Source: Winogradskyella schleiferi (GTDB lineage: Bacteria > Bacteroidota > Bacteroidia > Flavobacteriales > Flavobacteriaceae). From it: DNA of 64,000 nt. This document shows positions 3,428-23,841 of the stretch, piece by piece (position 1 is the stretch's first letter; every line of letters starts with the position of its first letter). The stretch lies in assembly GCF_013394655.1 (NCBI RefSeq), contig NZ_CP053351.1, forward strand, positions 2,944,501 through 3,008,500. The letters are read 5' to 3'. The notes below the pieces were generated by a model. That model did not search any database and was not told where the DNA came from. It saw nothing but the letters and a program-made list of their open reading frames with translations. The position numbers and the translations under genes are program-made.

Positions 3428-4141
3428 TTAAGATGATTTTTTAACATTATAACAATATTGATACAACACAGTAAAGTGATCTTTCATTTTTTGCTTTGCC
3501 AATTTAGGGTCTTGATTCTTTATGGCGCTATATATAGCATTGTGCTCTTCAATTCCTTGGCGAGCTAAGCTTTTATCACAAACATGGTACTTTTCAAAAT
3601 TTGTAATTATTTCTGGTGTAATTAACAGCATGAAATTATTTAATGTGGCATTACCACTCGCTTTAGCAATCGCTAAGTGAAATAATAAATCCTCCTGTAC
3701 CGCTTCTTCTCCTCTAAGTACTTTATCTGAATAAGCATCCAAGGCTGATTTTATTTTTGTTAAATCCTCATCTGACCTTCTAAGAGACGCTAAGCGTACT
3801 GTTTTTAGTTCCAACAGAATTCGTGTTTCAACTAAAGATTTAAAGTTTGGTTCTTGCAGGCTTAAGATTTCATCTATCATTCCATTCATGGCAATAACGC
3901 CGATATTGGCAACAAAAGTTCCGCTTTGAGGAATAGAATCCAATAATCCGTAAGTTTCTAATTTTTGAATGGCCTGTCTGACATTACTTCTAGTGACGCC
4001 GAATTTTTCGGATAAGGTTCGCTCTGAAGGTAATTTATCACCTGGCTCAAGATTTTTGAAATTTATGAGATCCTTAATTTTTGAAATAATTGTATTCTGA
4101 ATATCTATACTGTCTGCTTTTGCTAATATTTCTAATTTCAT
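3428..4141 (-). CDS. GntR-family (FadR/FCD type) regulator of the alginate locus
   Basis: 237 aa. The N-terminal winged helix is recognisable (KDLINFKNLEPGDKLPSERT, then EKFGVTRSNVRQAIQKLETYGLL), followed by an all-helical FCD ligand domain with the expected Asp/His metal-type residues (DLLFHLAIAKASGN). A GntR repressor (AusR) controls alginate catabolism in Zobellia galactanivorans; this gene sits in the corresponding place between the SusCD unit and the transporter, so I infer an orthologous role. FadR-type proteins often bind TGGTnnnACCA-like sites, close to the TGGTTWACCA tandem operators found upstream of three transcription units here. A degenerate copy lies 18 bp upstream of its own start. 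Confidence 0.92.
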   Translation of the reverse strand: MKLEILAKADSIDIQNTIISKIKDLINFKNLEPGDKLPSERTLSEKFGVTRSNVRQAIQKLETYGLLDSIPQSGTFVANIGVIAMNGMIDEILSLQEPNFKSLVETRILLELKTVRLASLRRSDEDLTKIKSALDAYSDKVLRGEEAVQEDLLFHLAIAKASGNATLNNFMLLITPEIITNFEKYHVCDKSLARQGIEEHNAIYSAIKNQDPKLAKQKMKDHFTVLYQYCYNVKKSS

Positions 4142-4159
4142 ACCTAAAAATTTATAAAT

Positions 4160-4172
4160 TGGTTACCCAGAT
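4160..4172. promoter_or_regulatory. Degenerate GntR operator upstream of the regulator gene
   Basis: TGGTTACCCAGAT is one mismatch away from the TGGTTAACCA core seen at the three main promoters. It lies 18 bp upstream of the GntR start codon and suggests autoregulation. Only a single unit is present and no -7 box is fused to it. Confidence 0.4.
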
Positions 4173-4304: not shown

Positions 4305-5240
4305 TTAATGACTGATTTCTAATTCGTAAAACCTCACTTTAGCGTAAGCACCTTCGTCTCTGGATTGAAAGTAATTTCCTGCTTTAAAATAATTTTCAAA
4401 TATGCCCCATTTTTTGATGTGGATACTTTCATAAGATTTAAATTCACTATCATTTAAAATAATAAGCATTTTTCCGTCCGTAACTTGAACTTCTAATTTG
4501 AATTTTCTGAAATCTACTTTTTGCTTAAAATTAAATCCTTCATCATCATCCCAAGCATCCTCATGCAATATCTCCGTATCTGAAGCATTTAAATTTTTCA
4601 GTATTTTAGTCTTAACCCTAATCTTTCCTTTATCCCAATAGATTTTTAATATTGGTGGCGCATTGTTATCATCTTCTCCAATAAGATCGCGCTGTTCGTT
4701 GGTTAATCTTCCATGGATTTGCATAATGATGACACGATGGTATTTGCCATCTTCGTCCCTAGTAACTTCATCCATGGCCAATTTGGCCATCATGGTGCCA
4801 CCTTGCTCAAAGGTCCAGTTTACATTATTCTCTCCAGGCACCATTTGCTCTCTTAACTCTGACCTTGAATATTTAGTGTTTCTAGTCGTGGAACTGGTTG
4901 GCATGGCATGAAAGACTATAGCTCCTTTTGTAGAGTCTATATAAATATATGGCTTTGCAACCTCTACACTAGCAAAATTTGAAATCTCTGGCGGTTCTAT
5001 TTCGTAAGGCTTCCCTTCTTCGTTAGTTACCGGTAAAGTGACTTTCCAATGACTGAGGTCGATTTCTGGAAGTTTTACTTTTTTCCGTTTCTTTCGTTTC
5101 TTCTTTTTTTTGTCCTTTTTTTCAACTTTAGTTTCCGAGTCTGTAACACTACTTCCCTTGTTCTGGGAAGTAGCATTAACAGATAGGAATGCTATCATCA
5201 ATACTGACAATAAAAATTGTTTTGAGGAAACTTTGCTCAT
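4305..5240 (-). CDS. PL7-family alginate lyase with Lys/Arg-rich linker
   Basis: 311 aa. A signal peptide covers about residues 1-26. The mature domain from about 58 carries the three PL7 hallmark segments: RSELR at 126-130, QIH at 174-176 and YFKAGNYFQ at 284-292. It cleaves alginate by beta-elimination, probably at the cell surface or in the periplasm; QIH is commonly linked to guluronate-containing substrates. Between signal peptide and enzyme domain (residues 38-56) lies an extreme Lys/Arg tract, an unusual linker that could bind the polyanionic substrate or cell surface. It is the last gene of the SusCD unit, 23 bp after the neighbouring lipoprotein gene. It has no lipobox, unlike the other two PL7 enzymes here. 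Confidence 0.93.
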   Translation of the reverse strand: MSKVSSKQFLLSVLMIAFLSVNATSQNKGSSVTDSETKVEKKDKKKKKRKKRKKVKLPEIDLSHWKVTLPVTNEEGKPYEIEPPEISNFASVEVAKPYIYIDSTKGAIVFHAMPTSSTTRNTKYSRSELREQMVPGENNVNWTFEQGGTMMAKLAMDEVTRDEDGKYHRVIIMQIHGRLTNEQRDLIGEDDNNAPPILKIYWDKGKIRVKTKILKNLNASDTEILHEDAWDDDEGFNFKQKVDFRKFKLEVQVTDGKMLIILNDSEFKSYESIHIKKWGIFENYFKAGNYFQSRDEGAYAKVRFYELEISH

Positions 5241-6749: not shown

Positions 6750-7562
6750 TTATTGAATACTAATTAAATCAACTCTCAATTCAAAACCTGCATAGTCAAG
6801 TCTAAATCTCAAATTCTCTGTTTCAGACCCTGTTGTAAATGTGTATGATATCTCATAATACTGTCCAGAAGTAGCAGAGGCTGGAATATCTTCATTAACG
6901 AAATTTTGTCCACTATCTGCATCTTGAATTAAAAGCGCACCACTATTGGTACTACCAGGAACACTTACATGCCAAAAAGTAATTGTATAGGTTGTAGCAG
7001 GGCTTACTAATATAGTTTGATCCAGCCATTGCGAACTACTAGATAGTTTAGCACCTGTACTGCCATCTGGAGGCGTTGGACCTGAAGACCCTGTAAAAGT
7101 ACTTGTTTCCCCTCCGTTTCCTGCCCAAGGTGTTCTAGGACTGCATTCAAAACTAGGACATTGAAATATTGGCACTAATTGATCTATAACTTCTACATCA
7201 ATTGTAATTGTTGATGACTGACCATTAGAATCACTGGCAGTTAGACTAACAGGGTAAGTCCCTACTCCGGCAAAGGTATGTGATGGATCTTTCAAATTAG
7301 AAGTTACTCCTCCACCAAAATCCCATAAATACGTATTAGCTTCAATAGAAAGATCTGTAAAATTGACGATTCTAAAATCCTCTTGATCCGATGCATAGCT
7401 AAAATTTGCAGATGGAGGCACTGTATCTGCCTTTGAATTTGCATCTGGTAAATCATCTCTAAAAAGTTCATCACCGACACAGCTAACCAAAACACTAGAT
7501 GTTGCAATTAAAGTTAACAGCAGCAATGTTGTTTTACGGAAAATATTCATTTTATTTTTCAT
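6750..7562 (-). CDS. PKD-domain surface lipoprotein of the alginate locus
   Basis: 270 aa. Signal peptide and lipobox (SVLVSC, Cys28) followed by acidic residues. A clear PKD domain spans about residues 50-127 (ANFSY...YLWDFGGGVTSNLKDPSHTF...GTYPVSLTASD). The C-terminal 140 residues look like a beta-sandwich module (TPWAGNGGETSTF ... LRFRLDYAGFELRVDLISI). It lies 23 bp after susD and 19 bp before the next lipoprotein gene, so it is probably a surface glycan-binding partner of the SusCD transporter. A second Met at codon 5 (7550) is an equally good start. No enzyme motif is seen. Confidence 0.85.
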   Translation of the reverse strand: MKNKMNIFRKTTLLLLTLIATSSVLVSCVGDELFRDDLPDANSKADTVPPSANFSYASDQEDFRIVNFTDLSIEANTYLWDFGGGVTSNLKDPSHTFAGVGTYPVSLTASDSNGQSSTITIDVEVIDQLVPIFQCPSFECSPRTPWAGNGGETSTFTGSSGPTPPDGSTGAKLSSSSQWLDQTILVSPATTYTITFWHVSVPGSTNSGALLIQDADSGQNFVNEDIPASATSGQYYEISYTFTTGSETENLRFRLDYAGFELRVDLISIQ

Positions 7563-7585: not shown

Positions 7586-9046
7586 TTAATAACCTGGGTT
7601 TTGCCCTAAAAGACCACCACTTATATTTCTTTCTCTTTGTGGGATTGGCAGAAATAAAGCCTGTCTCGGATCATAGGTATACCCCATTTCTACAGAATGA
7701 TCGCTTAAAATATCATCTAGAACACCAAATCGCTTTAAGTCAAAATAGCGTTGATTCTCAAAAGCTAATTCTACACGTCTTTCACGTAAAAGTTCTGCTT
7801 TAGTAACAGCAGTTACAACATCGGTTAAACCCGCTCTGTCTCTAACTCTCTGAAAAGAAGTTAAAGCAGCAGAATTATTAGTTGAGGTCGTCAACGGACC
7901 AGCTCCCAAAATCGATTCTACGTGCATTAAAAGTACATCCGCAAATCGTATGGCAATATAATCATTACCAGCATTACGTGCATTATCTCCATAATTTGAG
8001 CTACTATCAAATCCATCTGGGAAAAATTTAGCTACTTCGTTTTCATCAGGTGGAAGCGATCCATTGATATCTGTTATAGAAGTTGCTGTTCTATTTCCAC
8101 CATACATTTCAAAATCTAATCTAAGATTAGCATTTACTATATTTTGACCATCTTCTCTACCTGCACGAACCGAAGAGGTAAATTCAGATGAAAAACTTTG
8201 ACTTTCTTCTGCAACTCCTGATTGGTATTCTATAGCAAAAATGATTTCATCATTTAATTCTGAATAAAAAACATCATTATAATTACTTAATAAATCATAT
8301 TCCATACTGTTAATAATAGCTTCACACAACTGTTGTGCCCCACTGTAATTAGGACTTGGTTGTGTCATATACACCTTTGCTAACAAAGCTTGAGCAGCAG
8401 CTCTTGAAGCTCTTCCTTTGTATGAATTATCTAAAACATTAACTGCTTCTTGCAAATCTTCTACAATTTGTAAATAAATTTGATCTGAAGATATTCTTGT
8501 GAAAAGTGCTTCGTTATCTGTAGGACCTATCACTGATGTCACTAATGGCACATCTCCAAACAACCTAACCAATTTAAAATAAGCATAAGCTCTTAAAAAT
8601 TTAGCCTCAGCAGTGTAACTTGCTTGATTCTCTTGATCTGCTATATTTATAAAATTTAAGATATTGTTCGCTCTAAAAATCACTTCGTACATGGATTGAT
8701 AGTAGTCTTCAGATTCCACATTGTTCGCATTAACTACATATCTGTGAAAATCAGATTTTGAACCCTCTAATGTTGAATTTCTTGTATTATCAGTACGATG
8801 CTCCGTTAATAAATGTTCAAATTGAACTCCTCTATTAGATTCACCAATATTAGTTGTCGTATTTTCATTTGTCCCTTGAAGCGCATCATAGATTCCTATT
8901 ATGCCTGACAAAACATCATCATCGGTTTGAAAAAATGAATCTACCGTAATGGCTGAATCTGGCAATGGATTTAAAAATTCGTCAGTGTCACAGGAAACAA
9001 TAAAGAGTCCTGTCAATGTTAAAATTAAATATTTTATATGTTTCAT
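7586..9046 (-). CDS. SusD-like (RagB) outer-membrane lipoprotein
   Basis: 486 aa. Lipobox at Cys19 (FIVSC) then DTDEFLNPLPDSAIT, the typical SusD start, followed by TPR-like helices (YTAEAKFLRAYAYFKLVRLFGDVPLVT) and the C-terminal RERRVELAFENQRYFDLKRFG motif that marks the family. SusD proteins form the lid on the SusC barrel and hand over glycans. It begins 20 bp after the SusC stop codon and is part of the same operon; by context the ligand is oligoalginate. Confidence 0.96.
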   Translation of the reverse strand: MKHIKYLILTLTGLFIVSCDTDEFLNPLPDSAITVDSFFQTDDDVLSGIIGIYDALQGTNENTTTNIGESNRGVQFEHLLTEHRTDNTRNSTLEGSKSDFHRYVVNANNVESEDYYQSMYEVIFRANNILNFINIADQENQASYTAEAKFLRAYAYFKLVRLFGDVPLVTSVIGPTDNEALFTRISSDQIYLQIVEDLQEAVNVLDNSYKGRASRAAAQALLAKVYMTQPSPNYSGAQQLCEAIINSMEYDLLSNYNDVFYSELNDEIIFAIEYQSGVAEESQSFSSEFTSSVRAGREDGQNIVNANLRLDFEMYGGNRTATSITDINGSLPPDENEVAKFFPDGFDSSSNYGDNARNAGNDYIAIRFADVLLMHVESILGAGPLTTSTNNSAALTSFQRVRDRAGLTDVVTAVTKAELLRERRVELAFENQRYFDLKRFGVLDDILSDHSVEMGYTYDPRQALFLPIPQRERNISGGLLGQNPGY

Positions 9047-9065: not shown

Positions 9066-12000
9066 TTAAAAATCAACATTCATACCGAATGATATAGTTT
9101 GAAAAATCGGGTTACCTGCTCTTTGCGAACCATATGCTCTTGGATTATCTCCGTCTATATGCTCTGGATTAAAGCCATGGTAATCATCAGCAGTAACGTA
9201 CAACAAATTTTGACCTGTTGCATAAATTCTTAGCCCATTGACACCTATTTTTGATGTTAAGTTTTCTGGCATATTATACCCAAGGGTAACATTACGCAAT
9301 GAAAAGTAATCTGCACTCGCAATAACTTCGCTTGTTAACACCTTTTCTTGAATAAAAGATTCATCGGGTACTAGTCCGTCTGCAACTGCTTGAGCTTCTC
9401 CACCACTTCTGGTTCTATTTCCAAACCAATTGTAAAAATATTGATCTCCTATATTATTTACCTGTGCACCCAAACTTCCCTGAACCATAAATGAGAAATC
9501 AAAGTCACCTATTTTAAATTCATTAGTAAAACTATACACTAAATCTGGATATGGGTCACCTAAAATAGTTTTGTCTTCTTCAGTAATTAGTCCATCACCA
9601 TTTAAATCTTTTACGATAGTATCATCTGCTTGGCCATTAATTCTATTCCAAGGATTGTCAACATAGGTTGTTCTAAACGTAGTATCATCATACGCCTCTT
9701 CATCTACAACGTAACCCCAAAAAGATGATATAGGCTCACCTATTCTATTAATCCATTGAGAATTTCTACCATAAGTATCTTCGATTAGTGCATTATTAGA
9801 ATCACCAAAACTCAGTAATTCATTTTGATTTGTAGAAGCAATGAACGTTGTATTCCATGAAAATTTCTCTCTTGAAATATTTCTTGTTCTCAATTCAAGC
9901 TCCCAACCTCTATTTTGCACTTCACCTAAATTTACTATACCACTTGCAAAGCCAGTAATATAAGATGTAGGATTTTCTAGTAACAATTCATCACTGGTTC
10001 TTTGATAATAATCTATTGATCCTGAAATTTTATTATTAAGAAAACCAAAATCTATTGCTGGGTTAATTTCCTCGGAAGCTTCCCATTGTAATAAAGCGTT
10101 TGCAATATTACGCGCTGAAACACCTGGGACTATACTTCCGTTAACAATAGCATTTGATCCCTGTAACAAAGCTAGATAAGGCCATGAATTAACTATGTCA
10201 TCACCGACATTAAAGTTCTCGGCACCAGTACGCCCATAACTAGCTCTAAACTTTAATCTACTTATAAGATCACTATCAGCTAAGAACTCTTCATTATGTA
10301 AATTCCAACCTATTGAAGCTGCCGGGAAATTTCCCCACTTAGAATCTATTCCAAAAACTGAACTACCATCACGTCTGAAAGAAACTGACGCTAAATATTT
10401 ATCAGCATAAGCATACGAAGCTCTAGCAAAATAACCTATTTTTTTCAGTTCCGTATTGATTTCTGAAAATTCAGAGATTGCGGTTGCACCTTCTAAATTT
10501 GGAAGCAAATCATTGGTATATCCATTACCTATAACTTGGCTATTTTCACTTTTTCTTTGCTGTATAGTTACTCCACCAAGTAAACTAACTTCATGATCTG
10601 CAATTACCTTATTATACGCTAAAGTGTTATCTGATATAATTCTGATTCTATTTCGATTTTGCAAATCATATTGTGCTCTGCTATTACCATTGGCATGATA
10701 TTTAGTTCCGTCCCATCGTGTTCTCTTTCGTTGCTCTAAAGTAATACCTAGAGATGTTTTTGCTGTTAATCCATCTAAAATTTCATAACTCAAGTATGTA
10801 GCACCATACAACTTTGTATTAAACTCATAATGCTCTCTTTCCACATATTGCGCATAAGGATTTGAATCTCCTGACGTACGAGGTCTACTATCACTTCCAT
10901 CGTTATCTAAATCTAATTCAACTAGATGATTCTCGAAGAAATAATCACCTACTCCAACATCAGAATATTGACCGCCACCTATGTTTCTATCAATAAATTG
11001 TAGTGTTTCTTCAGTATGATATATTGGCAGCCATGGGGATTGACGTGTGGGATTGTGGATTGAGGTAGGTAATCGTCTTTGCTCTGAATAAGATGGAGTG
11101 GCACGCAAACCAAATTTAAACCTTTCACCTAATTTTGTATCCAATTTAAGGGCAGCAGTGTATAATTTGTAATCATCTGTAATAACAACGCCTTCATCAT
11201 GCAAATATCTTAATGATGTGCTAAATTTTGTACTTTCAGAACCCCCACGCGCCGCGAAAGAATGACTTGTAATTGTACCTCCATCAAAGAAAACATCTTG
11301 CCAATCTCTATCAACACCTGTTGTAGCTACCAACAATTGTGCATATTGAGTTTCCTCCGAAAGTGTTCCTGTCGCTGCTTGTTCAATTCTAGCCCAATCC
11401 GCTACACTCTTTCTATAATCATCACTTCCGTGCGCATCTTTAAATCCTATATAGGTTTGATAACTGAATTTTGTTTTACCTGCCTTACCACTCTTAGTTG
11501 TAATCATTATTACTCCATTTGCTCCTTCACTACCATAAATAGCTGCAGATGCCGCATCCTTTAAAACTTCAAAAGATTCAACATCGTTCATATCTAGATT
11601 TCCTAAAAAATCAGAACTTACAACTATACCATCAACCACTACCGCAGGACCAGAGTCCGCTGAAATAGACCCAACACCTCTAATTGTTATTGTCGGCGCA
11701 CCTCCAGCCTCAGCATTTGTAGCTTGGATATTGACCCCAGATACTTGTCCAATAAGAGCATCATCTACCCTAGATACAGTTATTTGATCTAATTTCTCAT
11801 TCTTTACTTTAGAAATCGCTCCGGTTAAATGACTTTTCTTTTGAGTACCATAACCTACTACCACAACCTCATCCAGTACACTAGTATCTTCTGCTAATTG
11901 TACATTGAGTGTTTGTTGAGCGTCAATAATCACAGTTTGTGTCACATAACCAATGTATGAGATTTGCACAACGTCTCCACTTTTGACCTCTAATTGGAAA

Positions 12001-12182
12001 TTACCATCAAAATCGGTTGTTGCTCCTTTTGTGGTTTTAAGAATAATAATATTTGCACCTGGTATGGGCATATTATCAGTTGCAGAAGTAACCGTACCTG
12101 TTAAGGTATAGCTATCTTGTGCAAAAATCATTACACTAAAGAGCAGTGCAACAACTGAAGTAATTTTAATTTTTAGATTCAT
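9066..12182 (-). CDS. SusC-like TonB-dependent receptor for alginate oligomers
   Basis: 1038 aa. After the signal peptide (to about residue 21) a carboxypeptidase-like N-terminal extension is visible (YTLTGTVTSATDNMPIPGANI...DGNFQLEV...ISYIGYVTQ), then the TonB-dependent plug (DEVVVVGYGTQKKSHLTGAIS) with the IRGVGSI motif, and a long beta-barrel ending in aromatic-terminated SFGMNVDF. This is the outer-membrane import channel paired with SusD. It is the first gene of a five-gene unit. The 320 bp upstream contain five tandem 13-bp operator units, a TAnnTTTG box and a 21-bp-spaced direct repeat, making this the most heavily controlled promoter in the window. Confidence 0.97.
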   Translation of the reverse strand: MNLKIKITSVVALLFSVMIFAQDSYTLTGTVTSATDNMPIPGANIIILKTTKGATTDFDGNFQLEVKSGDVVQISYIGYVTQTVIIDAQQTLNVQLAEDTSVLDEVVVVGYGTQKKSHLTGAISKVKNEKLDQITVSRVDDALIGQVSGVNIQATNAEAGGAPTITIRGVGSISADSGPAVVVDGIVVSSDFLGNLDMNDVESFEVLKDAASAAIYGSEGANGVIMITTKSGKAGKTKFSYQTYIGFKDAHGSDDYRKSVADWARIEQAATGTLSEETQYAQLLVATTGVDRDWQDVFFDGGTITSHSFAARGGSESTKFSTSLRYLHDEGVVITDDYKLYTAALKLDTKLGERFKFGLRATPSYSEQRRLPTSIHNPTRQSPWLPIYHTEETLQFIDRNIGGGQYSDVGVGDYFFENHLVELDLDNDGSDSRPRTSGDSNPYAQYVEREHYEFNTKLYGATYLSYEILDGLTAKTSLGITLEQRKRTRWDGTKYHANGNSRAQYDLQNRNRIRIISDNTLAYNKVIADHEVSLLGGVTIQQRKSENSQVIGNGYTNDLLPNLEGATAISEFSEINTELKKIGYFARASYAYADKYLASVSFRRDGSSVFGIDSKWGNFPAASIGWNLHNEEFLADSDLISRLKFRASYGRTGAENFNVGDDIVNSWPYLALLQGSNAIVNGSIVPGVSARNIANALLQWEASEEINPAIDFGFLNNKISGSIDYYQRTSDELLLENPTSYITGFASGIVNLGEVQNRGWELELRTRNISREKFSWNTTFIASTNQNELLSFGDSNNALIEDTYGRNSQWINRIGEPISSFWGYVVDEEAYDDTTFRTTYVDNPWNRINGQADDTIVKDLNGDGLITEEDKTILGDPYPDLVYSFTNEFKIGDFDFSFMVQGSLGAQVNNIGDQYFYNWFGNRTRSGGEAQAVADGLVPDESFIQEKVLTSEVIASADYFSLRNVTLGYNMPENLTSKIGVNGLRIYATGQNLLYVTADDYHGFNPEHIDGDNPRAYGSQRAGNPIFQTISFGMNVDF

Positions 12183-12294
12183 AATTCATTGTTTAGATTA
12201 ATTGTTAGATACTTATTTTGAATAGTTGATAATTTTCAATAAAAAAATAGGACTTTTTTAACACCAATACTTAGTATATCATCCGTTTTAAATT

Positions 12295-12359
12295 TGGTAA
12301 ACCAAACTGGTTTACCAAATTGGTTTACCAAATTGGTTTACCAAATTGGTTTACCAAAG
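12295..12359. promoter_or_regulatory. Array of five tandem 13-bp operators upstream of susC
   Basis: Five contiguous units begin at 12295, 12308, 12321, 12334 and 12347. Units 2-4 are TGGTTTACCAAAT, unit 5 ends in G, and unit 1 is TGGTAAACCAAAC. Each contains TGGT-nn-ACCA, and each junction forms the alternative palindrome ACCAAATTGGT, so half-sites alternate without gaps. The likely ligand is the GntR protein at 3428-4141. The array runs from the -7 box into the transcribed leader, a position suited to repression. Confidence 0.8.
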
Positions 12360-12362
12360 ATA
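12355..12362 (-). promoter_or_regulatory. Bacteroidetes -7 box for the SusCD unit
   Basis: Minus-strand TATCTTTG matches TAnnTTTG. It shares its CAAA (plus strand) with the last operator unit. No convincing -33 TTTG is present at the usual distance. The predicted start lies inside the operator array, about 165 nt before the SusC start codon. Confidence 0.55.
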
Positions 12363-12897: not shown

Positions 12898-15156
12898 TTA
12901 TTTAAAATAATAAGAACCTGACCACTCATAATTCTTATTATTAATTTCTAATTTATGTGTTGGTTTGTTTGAGGCATTTGTGTTTGCCGTTATAAATATT
13001 TTGGTAGTATCATTTATAGTAGTTATTGCGATTGCCGTATAATCTTCTGTATCTAAAACCACTTCTATAGCTTTAATATTACTGTTAGAATTTATTGCTG
13101 ATTCTGATACTGGACTATAACTACCATGTGCTTCTATTGTAGATACAAATAAAGTATTTTGTGTATTTTCCCGTCTTATCATGAATGCAGCCTCTCGTCT
13201 TAAATTGAATTCTGGATCGTTAGCGCCAATTCTTGTAAATAATAGATTGTCATTAGTATTTGTAAGCGTTGTTAGGGTATAGAACTTATTCTTATTTAGC
13301 CAAGACAGTTTGGAGTTGTCTGTTGAAGATTTTGTAGAACCTTCCAAAAATAAATGTTGATAACCATTTTTAGTCCCTAAAGCATTTAGGGATTCAGGAG
13401 TATTATATTCAAAATTGGCTTTTATGACTTGACCTAAAAAATAAAATGGATAATCATATTGATTTGCTGTGTCTGATGTAATCTTCATTATATCCAGCAT
13501 AAACGGTTTTTCGAATGCTTCATCTTTTATGATGGCCATAGTACGAAGCAGTTCTGTTCCAGGATATGCATTTTCTTCTTTAGCACTTACAACTTTTACA
13601 TTTTCATTTTCAGAGGAAAAATAGTTAAGAACGGAATGATGCTGACTGCCAATGTCATACTTCCCAGAAAAATGAGAGGTTTCATTTTGTGTAATTGTAT
13701 TATGGGCTATGGTTTGTTTTGCCCAAGTTTTGTTTTCCTTTAGATAATTGCCACCACCTTTTTGTTCAATATTTACAAATCGTGCCAAACCATAATCTTG
13801 AATAACCTCATCACCATTTTCATATAAGGAATAGGACAGCTTATCATAATGGCCATGACTGGAACCTTGCGCTGCATATTTAAAAACAAGTTCTAAATCT
13901 TCATTTCTTAAAATACCAACACCGCCTTGTGTTCCATCTGGTCCATCGGATAAGTTAATTGATTTTTTCTCGAATGGTTTCGCTTCTCCATTTTTAATTC
14001 CAAGCGCAACTGCCAAACCTGAATCATCCAACAATACGTGATTCTGTTCTTTGGCAATACTTAATAGACCAGGATCTTGGTCTCCGTAATGGTAAGAAAT
14101 GTCAACAGCTGTTACCAAAGCATTATTATAATAAGACATTCCTTTTTGCCCATCGTTTAGCGGAAAGAAATCACCATCGGCATCCGATAAGTTTAACAAG
14201 GCTTTTATGGACTTAATAAGTACGCCATTTTTATATTCAAATATCTTTAGTTCTGGTTTTACATTATGTAGTCCTTCAGCAAAAATTAAAAACGGATACA
14301 TGGCATAACGTTGGTAGTAAGGTCCTTCGTTATAATAACCATCGGGCGAAAATGGTTCTTCAATATTGGCTAAAAAACCGGCTTTTCCATCTTTGTTTAA
14401 ATAACCACCATCATCATCTTTTTCATTGGTATTTAATTTTAAATCTTTAATGCCATATAAAGCACGATCAATTAATTCTTGGTCGTCCATAACCAGACCA
14501 ATCATACCAACAGCTGCATTTCCCCAAGTACTATGGTTATGAACTCTTTGGTAAAATTTCGGGTTTTCAATCGAAATATAATCAGCAAAAGGTCTAAATA
14601 AATTTTTCTCTAGTTTGTTACGTTCTTCCTCGGACAAATACGTATAGATACAATCATAAGCTTGACTCACATACACCAACCAATTAGAATCGTTTAGACA
14701 TTGCCAAAACAATTTTCCTCTGGCATAAGACCGGGTTTTAGGATGTACTGGCAACGTATTATAGAGCGCTTCATATTGCATCAACATGTCTTTTGCATAT
14801 TTCGCGTATTTTTCGTCATCTAAAATTTGATATAACACACCCGCTTTTTGTAGCACGACCCAATTTCGTTTGTGTCGTACATGTGTATAACCTCCAGAGT
14901 AATCCTTTGGGACAGGCACGTCTATACCTGCTTCAATTTCGGCATCAATTTCTGCTTTTACTTTTTCTAAGGTCTTATCAAAAATTGGAATTGTTCCTAG
15001 TTGCGCCCTAATGTCTTTTACGCCTTGAGCTGTTAAAATTAGTTTTGGGTGTTGTTCTTCTTCAGTTGTAACCGTTTTTAAGGCGGATTCTTCTTTGCAA
15101 GACAATGCAAAAAGTAGTATCGAAATTACTGAGAATATTTTAAGCTTTTTATTCAT
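12898..15156 (-). CDS. PL17 oligoalginate lyase (lipoprotein)
   Basis: 752 aa. Lipobox at Cys20 (FALSC) followed by KEES. The N-terminal (alpha/alpha) toroid carries the PL17 active-site segment RVHNHSTWGN with Asn207 and His208, and a Tyr-rich segment at about 273-287 (DGYYNEGPYYQRYAMYPF). The C-terminal half is the heparinase II/III-like beta-sheet domain (QGSSHGHYDKLSYSLY). PL17 enzymes act exolytically on alginate oligomers and release unsaturated monomers. Lipid anchoring without an obvious surface-export signal suggests a periplasmic face. It is co-directional with kdgF downstream and has its own promoter with two operators 20 bp upstream. Confidence 0.94.
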   Translation of the reverse strand: MNKKLKIFSVISILLFALSCKEESALKTVTTEEEQHPKLILTAQGVKDIRAQLGTIPIFDKTLEKVKAEIDAEIEAGIDVPVPKDYSGGYTHVRHKRNWVVLQKAGVLYQILDDEKYAKYAKDMLMQYEALYNTLPVHPKTRSYARGKLFWQCLNDSNWLVYVSQAYDCIYTYLSEEERNKLEKNLFRPFADYISIENPKFYQRVHNHSTWGNAAVGMIGLVMDDQELIDRALYGIKDLKLNTNEKDDDGGYLNKDGKAGFLANIEEPFSPDGYYNEGPYYQRYAMYPFLIFAEGLHNVKPELKIFEYKNGVLIKSIKALLNLSDADGDFFPLNDGQKGMSYYNNALVTAVDISYHYGDQDPGLLSIAKEQNHVLLDDSGLAVALGIKNGEAKPFEKKSINLSDGPDGTQGGVGILRNEDLELVFKYAAQGSSHGHYDKLSYSLYENGDEVIQDYGLARFVNIEQKGGGNYLKENKTWAKQTIAHNTITQNETSHFSGKYDIGSQHHSVLNYFSSENENVKVVSAKEENAYPGTELLRTMAIIKDEAFEKPFMLDIMKITSDTANQYDYPFYFLGQVIKANFEYNTPESLNALGTKNGYQHLFLEGSTKSSTDNSKLSWLNKNKFYTLTTLTNTNDNLLFTRIGANDPEFNLRREAAFMIRRENTQNTLFVSTIEAHGSYSPVSESAINSNSNIKAIEVVLDTEDYTAIAITTINDTTKIFITANTNASNKPTHKLEINNKNYEWSGSYYFK

Positions 15157-15176: not shown

Positions 15177-15207
15177 ATTGGTTAACCAATCTGGTTTACC
15201 AAATATA
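15177..15207. promoter_or_regulatory. Two tandem operators fused to the -7 box of PL17-kdgF
   Basis: Units start at 15179 (TGGTTAACCAATC) and 15192 (TGGTTTACCAAAT), exactly 13 bp apart; the first lies in the perfect 14-bp palindrome ATTGGTTAACCAAT at 15177-15190. Plus-strand CAAATATA at 15200-15207 is a minus-strand TAnnTTTG box and begins at the second C of ACCA, the same register as at the other two promoters. This implies a separate start for PL17-kdgF within the larger cluster. Confidence 0.75.
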
Positions 15208-21355: not shown

Positions 21356-23692
21356 TTAGTACATTAGTTTTAACTTCAAATTTTCTTCTGTTTTTAATTG
21401 ACCTGAATTGATCAAAGTGTTTTCAGTTTCTACATTGTTTTTTGCACCCCATAGAATCGAAACAAACTCCACTGGATTATTTTTAAAAGTGTTATTATTG
21501 ATATTCACATTTACAATACCTCTGTGATTTAACAGAATGTCATTTTTCTCTTTTACGCCACAATTGACAAATGTACTATTGGTTACTAAAAGGTTGCCAC
21601 CAATGGTTGACTCGTCATAACCACCTCTGTAATAATCGATCACATTTTGTTTCACATTCGTAAATTGGCAATTATCAATGGTTAAATATTCTGTGTTGTA
21701 ATCACCTCTGTCGTTGGTTTCTTCGGAAAGTTCTATACCATTTTCGCAATTTGAAATTGAGGTGTTTTCAAAAGTGATGCGTTCAGAAAATGATTCTGTG
21801 TATACTTTGAGCACATAATTAAAATCGCTGATGTCAGTATTTGAAACTGAAAGACCAAAATGGTTCGACATGTTTTCTTTTAAACTTGCGAACGCGTAGT
21901 TTGAAGTATTTCCTTTTAACGTTACATTATTTACTGTTAACTTTCCTTTAGATTCCAATGAAAATAAAGGTGTGTTAGCCGCTCCTGAAAACATAAGTTC
22001 AGCTTTTTCGTTACCTTGGGATTGAATTGTGATTGTCTTATTGATTACTACGGACTTTTCAACATTATAAACACCTTCAGCTAAAGCAATAATATCGCCA
22101 TTTATGGCTTCATCTATTTTAGTTTGCAAGTCTTCTGCTTTAGTTACAGCGTGTATCGTCGGTTCTTTTGCTTCAATTTCATTGGAATACCATGAGGTTC
22201 CATATTTTGACTTATCTAAAATATTCGGATTGGAAACATCTACACCAACAGCCGCACCAATACTTTTACTATCTTTTCTTGAAGCACCGAATAAATCGGT
22301 TTTAATGGTATTAAAATCGAAACCATTATAGACTTCAATTTCAGAAGGAATTCCTGATGGAAGGAAAATATATTTTGATACTTTTTTCAACTCTAAAGAT
22401 GCAGTTTTAATTCCGCCATCAAAGTCATTAAATTTTACACCTTGATTATCTACAACATTACTTTTAAATATCACGCCATCAGCTTTGTCGTTTTCAACAA
22501 CAATCTTTTCTAATCCCTTTTCATTATAAATCACATTATTGGCAACCGTAGTTCTAATGGCTCTAGCTGAGCGGATTTCTGATTTTGGTAACACATCTGA
22601 TTGTGCAATATTTGTACCCACACCAAACTGCCACGGTGAACTACAATTTACATACGTATTATAAGCCACAACCACATCAGTTACTTGGTTATAGCGGTTT
22701 AATGGCGATTTTGGAATACCATTCATTACAGCTAATGGACTTCTGAAACTTGTCCCTATTAGGTTATAGAAGTAGTTGTTTGTAACCCAATGACCAGTAT
22801 TGATAATTCTAATGCCACCAACGTTTTTATTTACACCATCACCAATAAAATAATTGCCATCGATAGTACAATAATTTCCATGACGTGTAACCAGTGAGCC
22901 TTCACTTTTATAAAACACATTATTTCTAAACTCGTTGAAGTTTGTTTTGCTTGAAATGACTTCCACCTCACCATTGCACTCTTCAAATAAATTATTGGCG
23001 ACCATGGTATAACTTGGTGACATGGAAGTGTAACTGTTTCCTAACTGAATTGTCTCACCACTTGGACCACCTTTAACAGGTCTTGGACCAAAATGATTGT
23101 TGATGATTTGGTGGTAATTATTTATACTTTCCCTACCTTCTATACTCACTCTAACGGTTGGGCCTCTGTTTGTCTTTCCTGCGATATAGCAATTGCTTAA
23201 TTCATTGTGTCTTCCCCAAAACCTAACCCATAAATCATCATCATCTCTTTTAAGTTTGTTAAAATCCTCGATAACACAATTGGTGAATTTACAATGGCTG
23301 GCTATTTCGTCCAGTGAATCTTTATGGCTTATTTTAAAATCTATAACAGCACTAGATGGTGAATATCCATTTTTAAAATGCAAACCTTCTACCGTTAAGT
23401 ATTCGCCTCCAAACTTTAAATAGGACTTACCCTCAATACTAACTTTTCCAGGGGTTTCAGCTTTTAATGTTATAGGATTGTTTTTGGTTCCTTTCCCCCT
23501 AAATTTAATTTCAACATCTTTGTAAACACCATTTTTCAAAACGATATCATCACCTGCTTGTGCATTTTTTATGGCATCGTTTAACTCGTCAATATTGGAA
23601 ATTAATTGACTTGATTCTGTACTTGTAGTAGCCTTTTCCCCACATGAGTAAAGTGCTAAGAACAAAGCGAAAATTAATGGATATGTTTTCAT
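21356..23692 (-). CDS. PL6-family alginate lyase, two-domain (lipoprotein)
   Basis: 778 aa. Lipobox at Cys17 (LALYSC). Residues about 28-400 form the catalytic right-handed beta-helix of the chondroitinase B/PL6 type; Lys249 (VISSKTNFNEFRNN) and Arg270 (SLVTRHGN) correspond to the catalytic Lys/Arg pair of characterised PL6 lyases, with the same spacing of 21. A second beta-helix covers about 510-770 (EDLQTKIDEAINGDIIALAEGVYNV...), as in the two-domain PL6 enzymes. It is the first gene of a six-gene alginate operon; its upstream region has two operators, a -7 box and a 21-bp direct repeat. Confidence 0.94.
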   Translation of the reverse strand: MKTYPLIFALFLALYSCGEKATTSTESSQLISNIDELNDAIKNAQAGDDIVLKNGVYKDVEIKFRGKGTKNNPITLKAETPGKVSIEGKSYLKFGGEYLTVEGLHFKNGYSPSSAVIDFKISHKDSLDEIASHCKFTNCVIEDFNKLKRDDDDLWVRFWGRHNELSNCYIAGKTNRGPTVRVSIEGRESINNYHQIINNHFGPRPVKGGPSGETIQLGNSYTSMSPSYTMVANNLFEECNGEVEVISSKTNFNEFRNNVFYKSEGSLVTRHGNYCTIDGNYFIGDGVNKNVGGIRIINTGHWVTNNYFYNLIGTSFRSPLAVMNGIPKSPLNRYNQVTDVVVAYNTYVNCSSPWQFGVGTNIAQSDVLPKSEIRSARAIRTTVANNVIYNEKGLEKIVVENDKADGVIFKSNVVDNQGVKFNDFDGGIKTASLELKKVSKYIFLPSGIPSEIEVYNGFDFNTIKTDLFGASRKDSKSIGAAVGVDVSNPNILDKSKYGTSWYSNEIEAKEPTIHAVTKAEDLQTKIDEAINGDIIALAEGVYNVEKSVVINKTITIQSQGNEKAELMFSGAANTPLFSLESKGKLTVNNVTLKGNTSNYAFASLKENMSNHFGLSVSNTDISDFNYVLKVYTESFSERITFENTSISNCENGIELSEETNDRGDYNTEYLTIDNCQFTNVKQNVIDYYRGGYDESTIGGNLLVTNSTFVNCGVKEKNDILLNHRGIVNVNINNNTFKNNPVEFVSILWGAKNNVETENTLINSGQLKTEENLKLKLMY

Positions 23693-23812
23693 TTAATATA
23701 GTATTTGATTTAATTACTGTGTGCCTTTACCATCCAAACCTTAACAGACGAAACCTAGAATTGTATGGAGTAGTATGGTTTAAATTCTTTTTATATTGGT
23801 TATTCTATTAAT

Positions 23813-23841
23813 TGGTTAACCAGTTTGGTTAACCAAAAATA
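23813..23841. promoter_or_regulatory. Two tandem operators fused to the -7 box of the PL6 unit
   Basis: TGGTTAACCAGTT (23813-23825) and TGGTTAACCAAAA (23826-23838) are exactly 13 bp apart; each has the perfect palindrome TGGTTAACCA. Plus-strand CAAAAATA at 23834-23841 is a minus-strand TAnnTTTG box starting at the second C of ACCA, the same register as at the susC and PL17 promoters. Expected regulator: the GntR protein. Confidence 0.75.

Follow-up and report, generated by a model that had tools for sequence, protein, structure and literature searches.

A dense tandem array of probable GntR operators at the predicted promoter of an alginate SusC gene in Winogradskyella schleiferi

Upstream of the SusC gene of an alginate cluster in Winogradskyella schleiferi, five 12-bp palindromes of the form YTGGTWWACCAR stand head to tail with a strict 13-bp step (12294-12358, minus strand, of the 64-kb stretch of DNA that was analysed, referred to here as the window). 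The array is very probably the multi-copy operator of the AusR-type GntR/FCD repressor encoded in the same cluster, which would block the promoter, bind cooperatively, act as a roadblock in the leader, and be released by alginate products. The original prediction, of probable GntR operators in dense tandem arrangement upstream of an alginate SusC gene, is supported by the comparisons of related sequences given below. It had overlooked the start of the array within the -7 box and its continuation downstream of the predicted transcription start.

The array and the alginate cluster

The array, its units, and the cluster genes are as follows.

12294-12358, minus strand: five-unit operator array (putative); coding order A-A-A-A'-B, that is, TTTGGTAAACCAA three times, then TTTGGTAAACCAG and TTTGGTTTACCAA
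12294-12305, 12307-12318, 12320-12331, 12333-12344, and 12346-12357, minus strand: the five units, as matches to the unit pattern
9066-12182, minus strand: SusC-type TonB-dependent transporter gene (TIGR04056, E 1.2e-235)
7586-9046, minus strand: SusD-type lipoprotein gene (PF14322, PF07980)
6750-7562, minus strand: PKD/CBM protein gene (PF18911, PF02018)
4305-5240, minus strand: alginate lyase gene (Alginate_lyase2, PF08787, E 4.4e-56)
3428-4141, minus strand: GntR/FCD regulator gene, the proposed AusR-type repressor (PF00392 and PF07729, above cut-off)

Each unit starts 13 bp after the previous one, which bears out the five gapless repeats first described, and the SusC start codon at 12182 (minus strand) confirms that they lie upstream of that gene. 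In the frame used originally, three of the five units read exactly TGGTTTACCAAAT, while the first is TGGTAAACCAAAC and the last has a G at its end. The predicted turn of about 85 degrees per unit also agrees with simple arithmetic, 13 bp amounting to about 86 degrees at 10.5 bp per turn. Eight fixed bases are intact in all five units. Tandem Repeats Finder gives the array a score of 109 in the 64-kb window, the runner-up array reaching 63. Allowing up to two mismatches, TTGGTWWACCAA is matched 36 times in the window, against a mean of 18.7 in 100 shuffles (largest 33), and nine of the eleven matches with no or one mismatch fall in three groups with a 13-bp step, at 12294, 15178, and 23812.

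The genes that come after the array are, in order, SusC, SusD, the PKD/CBM protein, a protein with no Pfam match, the PF08787 lyase (a family that we take to be CAZy PL7), and the GntR/FCD regulator. The regulator gene thus lies inside an alginate cluster, with alginate lyases, SusC/D, the PKD protein, and MFS and SDR neighbours. Its product combines an N-terminal winged helix (PF00392, E 2.3e-18) with a C-terminal FCD domain (PF07729, E 5.7e-24), and belongs by these features to the FCD (FadR) group of the GntR superfamily. Elsewhere in the genome, at 4379574-4379681, a 46-codon open frame is 64% like the first 36 residues of this protein and is possibly a remnant.

Overlap with the predicted promoter

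In flavobacterial promoters, the -33 element reads TTG. According to excerpts of PMC9723704, the flavobacterial -7 box is TAnnTTTG and lies at -12 to -5. The promoter features deduced in the window are listed here.

12346-12357, minus strand: unit 1, promoter-proximal, overlapping the predicted -7 box
12355-12362, minus strand: predicted -7 box TATCTTTG (TAnnTTTG; consensus from excerpts of PMC9723704)
12382-12384, minus strand: position of the -33-like element, TTA here and TTG in most relatives
12350, minus strand: predicted transcription start, deduced from the -7 box, which according to the published data spans -12 to -5

A sigma-A-type TAnnTTTG box is thus found at the window array, and its position (12362-12355) puts the start near 12350; unit 1 would then lie across the start, with units 2-5 following in the leader as far as about +57. 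The overlap of unit 1 and box recurs in the relatives. In coding direction, most arrays open with TATATTTGG, so that the TTTG of the -7 box comes from the first unit. Among the 98 arrays (window included) that lie no more than 600 bp from the start of a homologous gene, the TA of the box is present on the upstream side of 92, compared with 12 of the 98 on the downstream side. In 70 of the 98 arrays, a TTG starts 27-29 bp ahead of unit 1; it occurs within 24-33 bp in 66 of the 92 arrays with TA, versus 22 of 98 on the other side, taken as a control. Across 67 distinct SusC-upstream sequences of relatives, the TA is invariant (67/67), and the positions 28-26 bp upstream of unit 1 carry T in 100%, T in 93%, and G in 70%, which fits a -33 element. 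That the window's own -33 position reads TTA and not TTG counts against the operator reading. The six arrays lacking the upstream TA all precede PL17 genes; their box, TATATTGG, is shorter than TAnnTTTG by one base. These six loci (L033, L034, L035, L037, L040, and L045) recall the shorter SM5 box, TAnnTTGY, described for Flavobacterium psychrophilum in excerpts of PMC9723704.

Such a layout suggests how the switch might operate. One repressor dimer would occupy each 12-bp palindrome, with neighbours 13 bp and about 86 degrees apart around the helix. Because unit 1 overlaps the -7 box, a dimer bound there would cover the box and block RNA polymerase. Over units 2-5, downstream of the predicted start, occupancy would be cooperative, which is plausible, and would hold the complex in place and form a roadblock. 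Binding of alginate breakdown products to the repressor would then empty the array and allow SusC/D to be expressed.

Conservation of the 13-bp period and co-occurrence with the regulator gene

A single scan for relatives of the GntR protein yielded 302, the nearest ones, from Winogradskyella, being 85% identical, and the best 80 of these 302 loci were analysed. They contain 270 exact copies of TGGTNNACCA. Pairs of exact occurrences within 80 bp are 13 bp apart in 85 cases, 26 bp in 16, and 39 bp in one, and no other distance is seen; the period is therefore kept in relatives, as the original prediction demanded. When one mismatch is allowed, the same loci give 148, 39, and 5 pairs at these distances, a further 30 being spread among 19 other distances. 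Defined as at least two units, with one mismatch per unit allowed and at least one unit exact, arrays are present in 76 of the 80 loci. Three of the four loci with no array are short contigs; the fourth (L101) is of full length and has a SusC gene, and counts against a general rule. A 12-bp step was rejected as an alternative period: an exact, slightly stricter pattern was found in none of 60 genus genomes, and with up to three mismatches the own genome gave 29 matches versus 35 in the reversed control per strand, every match having at least two mismatches.

The GntR gene (E <= 1e-30) is present in 27 of the 60 genus genomes, own genome included. The exact 13-bp pair is found in 25 of these 27 genomes and in none of the 33 others (Fisher p 7e-15, uncorrected for relatedness). 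The two exceptions, G464 and G472, carry the gene with no exact pair and no array in the stretches examined, which may not hold the SusC promoter; they stand against a strict association. Combining the -7 box with the pair yields 96 matches over the 60 genomes, all of them in the 25 genomes that have both gene and pair, and none in the reversed control; in this count an array that is readable from both ends, such as that of the window, scores twice. The overlap of operator and -7 box thus makes the regulon easy to call, since box plus 13-bp pair picks out 25 of the 60 genomes, all with the GntR gene.

In the W. schleiferi genome, the exact box plus pair marks four promoters, three of them in the window. 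Besides the SusC promoter, these are the following two.

15178-15202, minus strand: two-unit array upstream of an alginate lyase gene (12898-15156, Alginate_lyase and Hepar_II_III domains, presumably PL17); -7 box TATATTTG
23812-23836, minus strand: two-unit array upstream of a chondroitinase-B-type lyase gene (21356-23692, Chondroitinas_B, which we take to be PL6); -7 box TATTTTTG

The latter gene is followed by two further PF08787 lyases. The fourth array lies about 5 kb beyond the window, at 2939689-2939713 of the 4.56-Mb genome, where it precedes a gene for a Por_Secre_tail-domain protein. Four further exact units in this genome stand alone, which counts against the operator reading. A search of the promoter region against plasmid records gave no match.

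A tandem pair as the probable smallest operator

Units linked to a -7 box are found in tandem, and isolated ones at background level only. When the 361 TAnnTTTGG sites on the plus strand of the 80 loci are compared with the two-unit operator, they agree at either 3-11 of 16 positions (263 sites) or 15-16 of 16 (98 sites), with none between. An isolated exact box plus unit is absent from both strands of the 80 loci and the window, where the reversed control gives two. In the 60 genus genomes, such isolated matches show no excess with the GntR gene (46 in the 27 genomes with it vs 69 in the 33 without; p 0.32). The own genome has one, at 2029365, and a search of it for weak single sites (box plus unit with one mismatch) gave 52 matches vs 85 in the reversed control, again no excess. 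This bimodal distribution, together with the lack of an excess of isolated units, favours binding that needs two neighbours, and the working operator looks like a pair.

A pair would also be the smallest operator if dimers sat on the junctions, ACCAnnnTGGT, so that n units made n-1 dimers and two units a single operator. The original prediction had proposed the junction palindromes as a second binding register. Consistent with dimers on junctions are the box-linked units with no isolated excess, and the conservation within arrays: in 32 three-unit arrays, conservation peaks at the half-sites of the first junction (each perfect in 31, against 21-26 for the other four), and among the half-sites of 61 two-unit arrays the 5' outer one is least conserved (perfect in 53, the others in 60-61). 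Nevertheless, all 61 of these two-unit arrays have a perfect 3' outer half-site, which in this respect resembles the inner ones. Arrays also consist of whole units from end to end, just three additional half-sites being present next to 110 arrays. The half-sites of the junction also stand in the opposite order to those of the GntR-type box, exemplified by AATTGGTnnnACCAATT of PdhR (excerpts of PMC7660256). The second register thus finds no footing in these data, and occupation of the junctions is improbable.

Alternatively, the repeat could act in the RNA, the transcribed palindromes forming a hairpin at the 5' end that would protect the SusC message or adjust how it is translated. Over its predicted first 66 nt (window 12285-12350, minus strand), the transcript does fold to -29 kcal/mol (z -5.4), but tandem palindromes fold so by their nature. 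In the relatives, two-unit leaders exceed their column-permuted versions in stability (none of 200 as low, with relatedness uncontrolled), whereas three-unit leaders are not clearly so (46 of 200 as low), and from predicted start to array end the two-unit arrays reach only about -2.9 kcal/mol. With the signs of selection on the RNA both weak and mixed, a hairpin as the main function is not favoured, and an RNA role of this kind is very unlikely. Over the first 60 nt of the leader, folding energies average -9.2 kcal/mol in 62 two-unit cases (range -21.6 to -2.8) and -11.4 kcal/mol in 32 three-unit cases. One dimer per unit, on a tandem pair or more, is the reading retained here.

Copy number from two to five

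The 73 SusC promoters carry two units in 38 cases, three in 33, four in one, and five in one, the window; two or three units are thus present at 71 of them. Of the remaining 25 of the 98 arrays, at promoters of other genes, 24 have two units and one has three. A four-unit pattern, with three mismatches at most, occurs in six of 397 family genomes (an even sample of a larger group), own genome included; only the own genome matches perfectly, the other five showing two or three mismatches. In 68 genus genomes, only the own genome is matched. Four-unit arrays in the 80 loci are those of L056 and L102, each with one or two imperfect units.

A congener with the same promoter flanks has three units, A-A'-B, where the window has A-A-A-A'-B, and the simplest reading is that five copies expanded from three by slippage. 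The SusC of this congener is 52% identical over 407 aligned residues, and that of Winogradskyella ludwigii (L036), which has the same array, 39%. The promoter appears better conserved than the SusC gene; at L036 and L121, it is as if transporters had been swapped behind a kept promoter.

It is possible, if doubtful, that the extra copies are neutral products of slippage, two units being enough and units 3-5 adding little. Just two units are present at 38 of the 73 SusC promoters and at 24 of the 25 others, the congener SusC promoters examined carry two or three, and units 1-3 of the window (coding order) are identical, as after recent slippage. Set against this, three units are kept at 33 of the 73 SusC promoters, and all five units of the window are intact at the eight fixed bases. 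Neutral slippage is compatible with the operator reading and denies solely that five copies matter. Tentatively, a spiral of dimers might instead nucleate on the tandem pair at the -7 box and grow down the leader, with copy number, from two to five, serving as a slippage-driven dial for the tightness and steepness of alginate transporter switching, a dial turned furthest in this species. SusC promoters with nearly identical sites in corresponding positions, numbering two, three, four, or five, form a natural series that can be used to test how operator number affects the induction of polysaccharide uptake.

Comparison with known GntR systems

AusR of Zobellia galactanivorans, said to be described by Dudek et al. 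(2020, Nucleic Acids Res), reportedly belongs to the GntR family and represses alginate use. The window GntR protein has relatives with similar neighbours in Maribacter (L089, 76% identical) and Flagellimonas (L112, 72%), and the cluster regulator is proposed to be of the AusR type. According to excerpts of PMC7874173, Zobellia AusR acts through one, two, or three copies of its operator, and intermediates of alginate breakdown release it. As described in excerpts of PMC8073546 and PMC7874173, the Zobellia system shares with the window a GntR-family regulator in an alginate cluster with PL7, PL17, PKD-protein, and transporter genes, and multi-copy operators at promoters. AusR and its multi-copy operators are thus already in print. 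Relative to AusR as described in these secondary papers, what is added here is the five-copy array, along with the tandem minimum and the -7 box overlap. The two-unit arrays at three promoters of the own genome fit the one to three copies that the excerpts of PMC7874173 report, its five units at SusC exceed them, and no box-linked singles are evident. The single AusR copies of that source sit uneasily with the lack of a single-unit excess in this genus. The window array appears to be a known kind of switch in an unusually long form; the relatives mostly have two or three copies.

E. coli NanR, according to excerpts of PMC8012715, binds (GGTATA)3 as three adjacent dimers, cooperatively (Hill coefficient about 2), and does not bind a single repeat. 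It resembles the present case as a GntR protein on short tandem repeats, but its repeats are separated by less than half a helical turn, and its cooperativity needs a 32-residue N-terminal extension (same excerpts), whereas the window protein has none that long. Its GntR domain begins at residue 16, relatives begin at the same residue, and its match to the NanR chain starts at residue 19, aligned with position 37 of NanR. Any contacts between dimers must therefore differ from those of NanR. The earlier remark that arrays this dense are unusual for GntR proteins holds only in part: AusR double and triple operators (PMC7874173) and the NanR triple repeat, bound as three dimers (PMC8012715), are contrary cases in the excerpts of both sources. 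The phrase 'tandem operator' is absent from the literature matches on tandem or 13-bp GntR operators. The E. coli PdhR box, AATTGGTnnnACCAATT, is a single 15- or 17-bp palindrome in excerpts of PMC7660256; it has the same half-sites, TTGGT...ACCAA, but a spacer of 3 bp, versus 2 bp here, and is not an array.

Upstream of the window GntR gene itself, a poor unit match only is found (4159-4170, two mismatches). Five Aquimarina loci (L081, L090, L093, L094, and L110, near 9953) have a two-unit array 24-25 bp before the start of their own GntR gene, which suggests autoregulation. One genome of the genus (G458) has a second lyase cluster (L173, G458:C44:25000-44000) that encodes two paralogues of the window GntR protein, with identities of about 60% and 49%. 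This cluster contains pairs of variant units, e.g., TGGTGCACCA and TGGTGCGCCA, at a 13-bp step behind TATATT or TATTTT, again at a -7 box; regulator and operator may have diverged together there, with the step kept.
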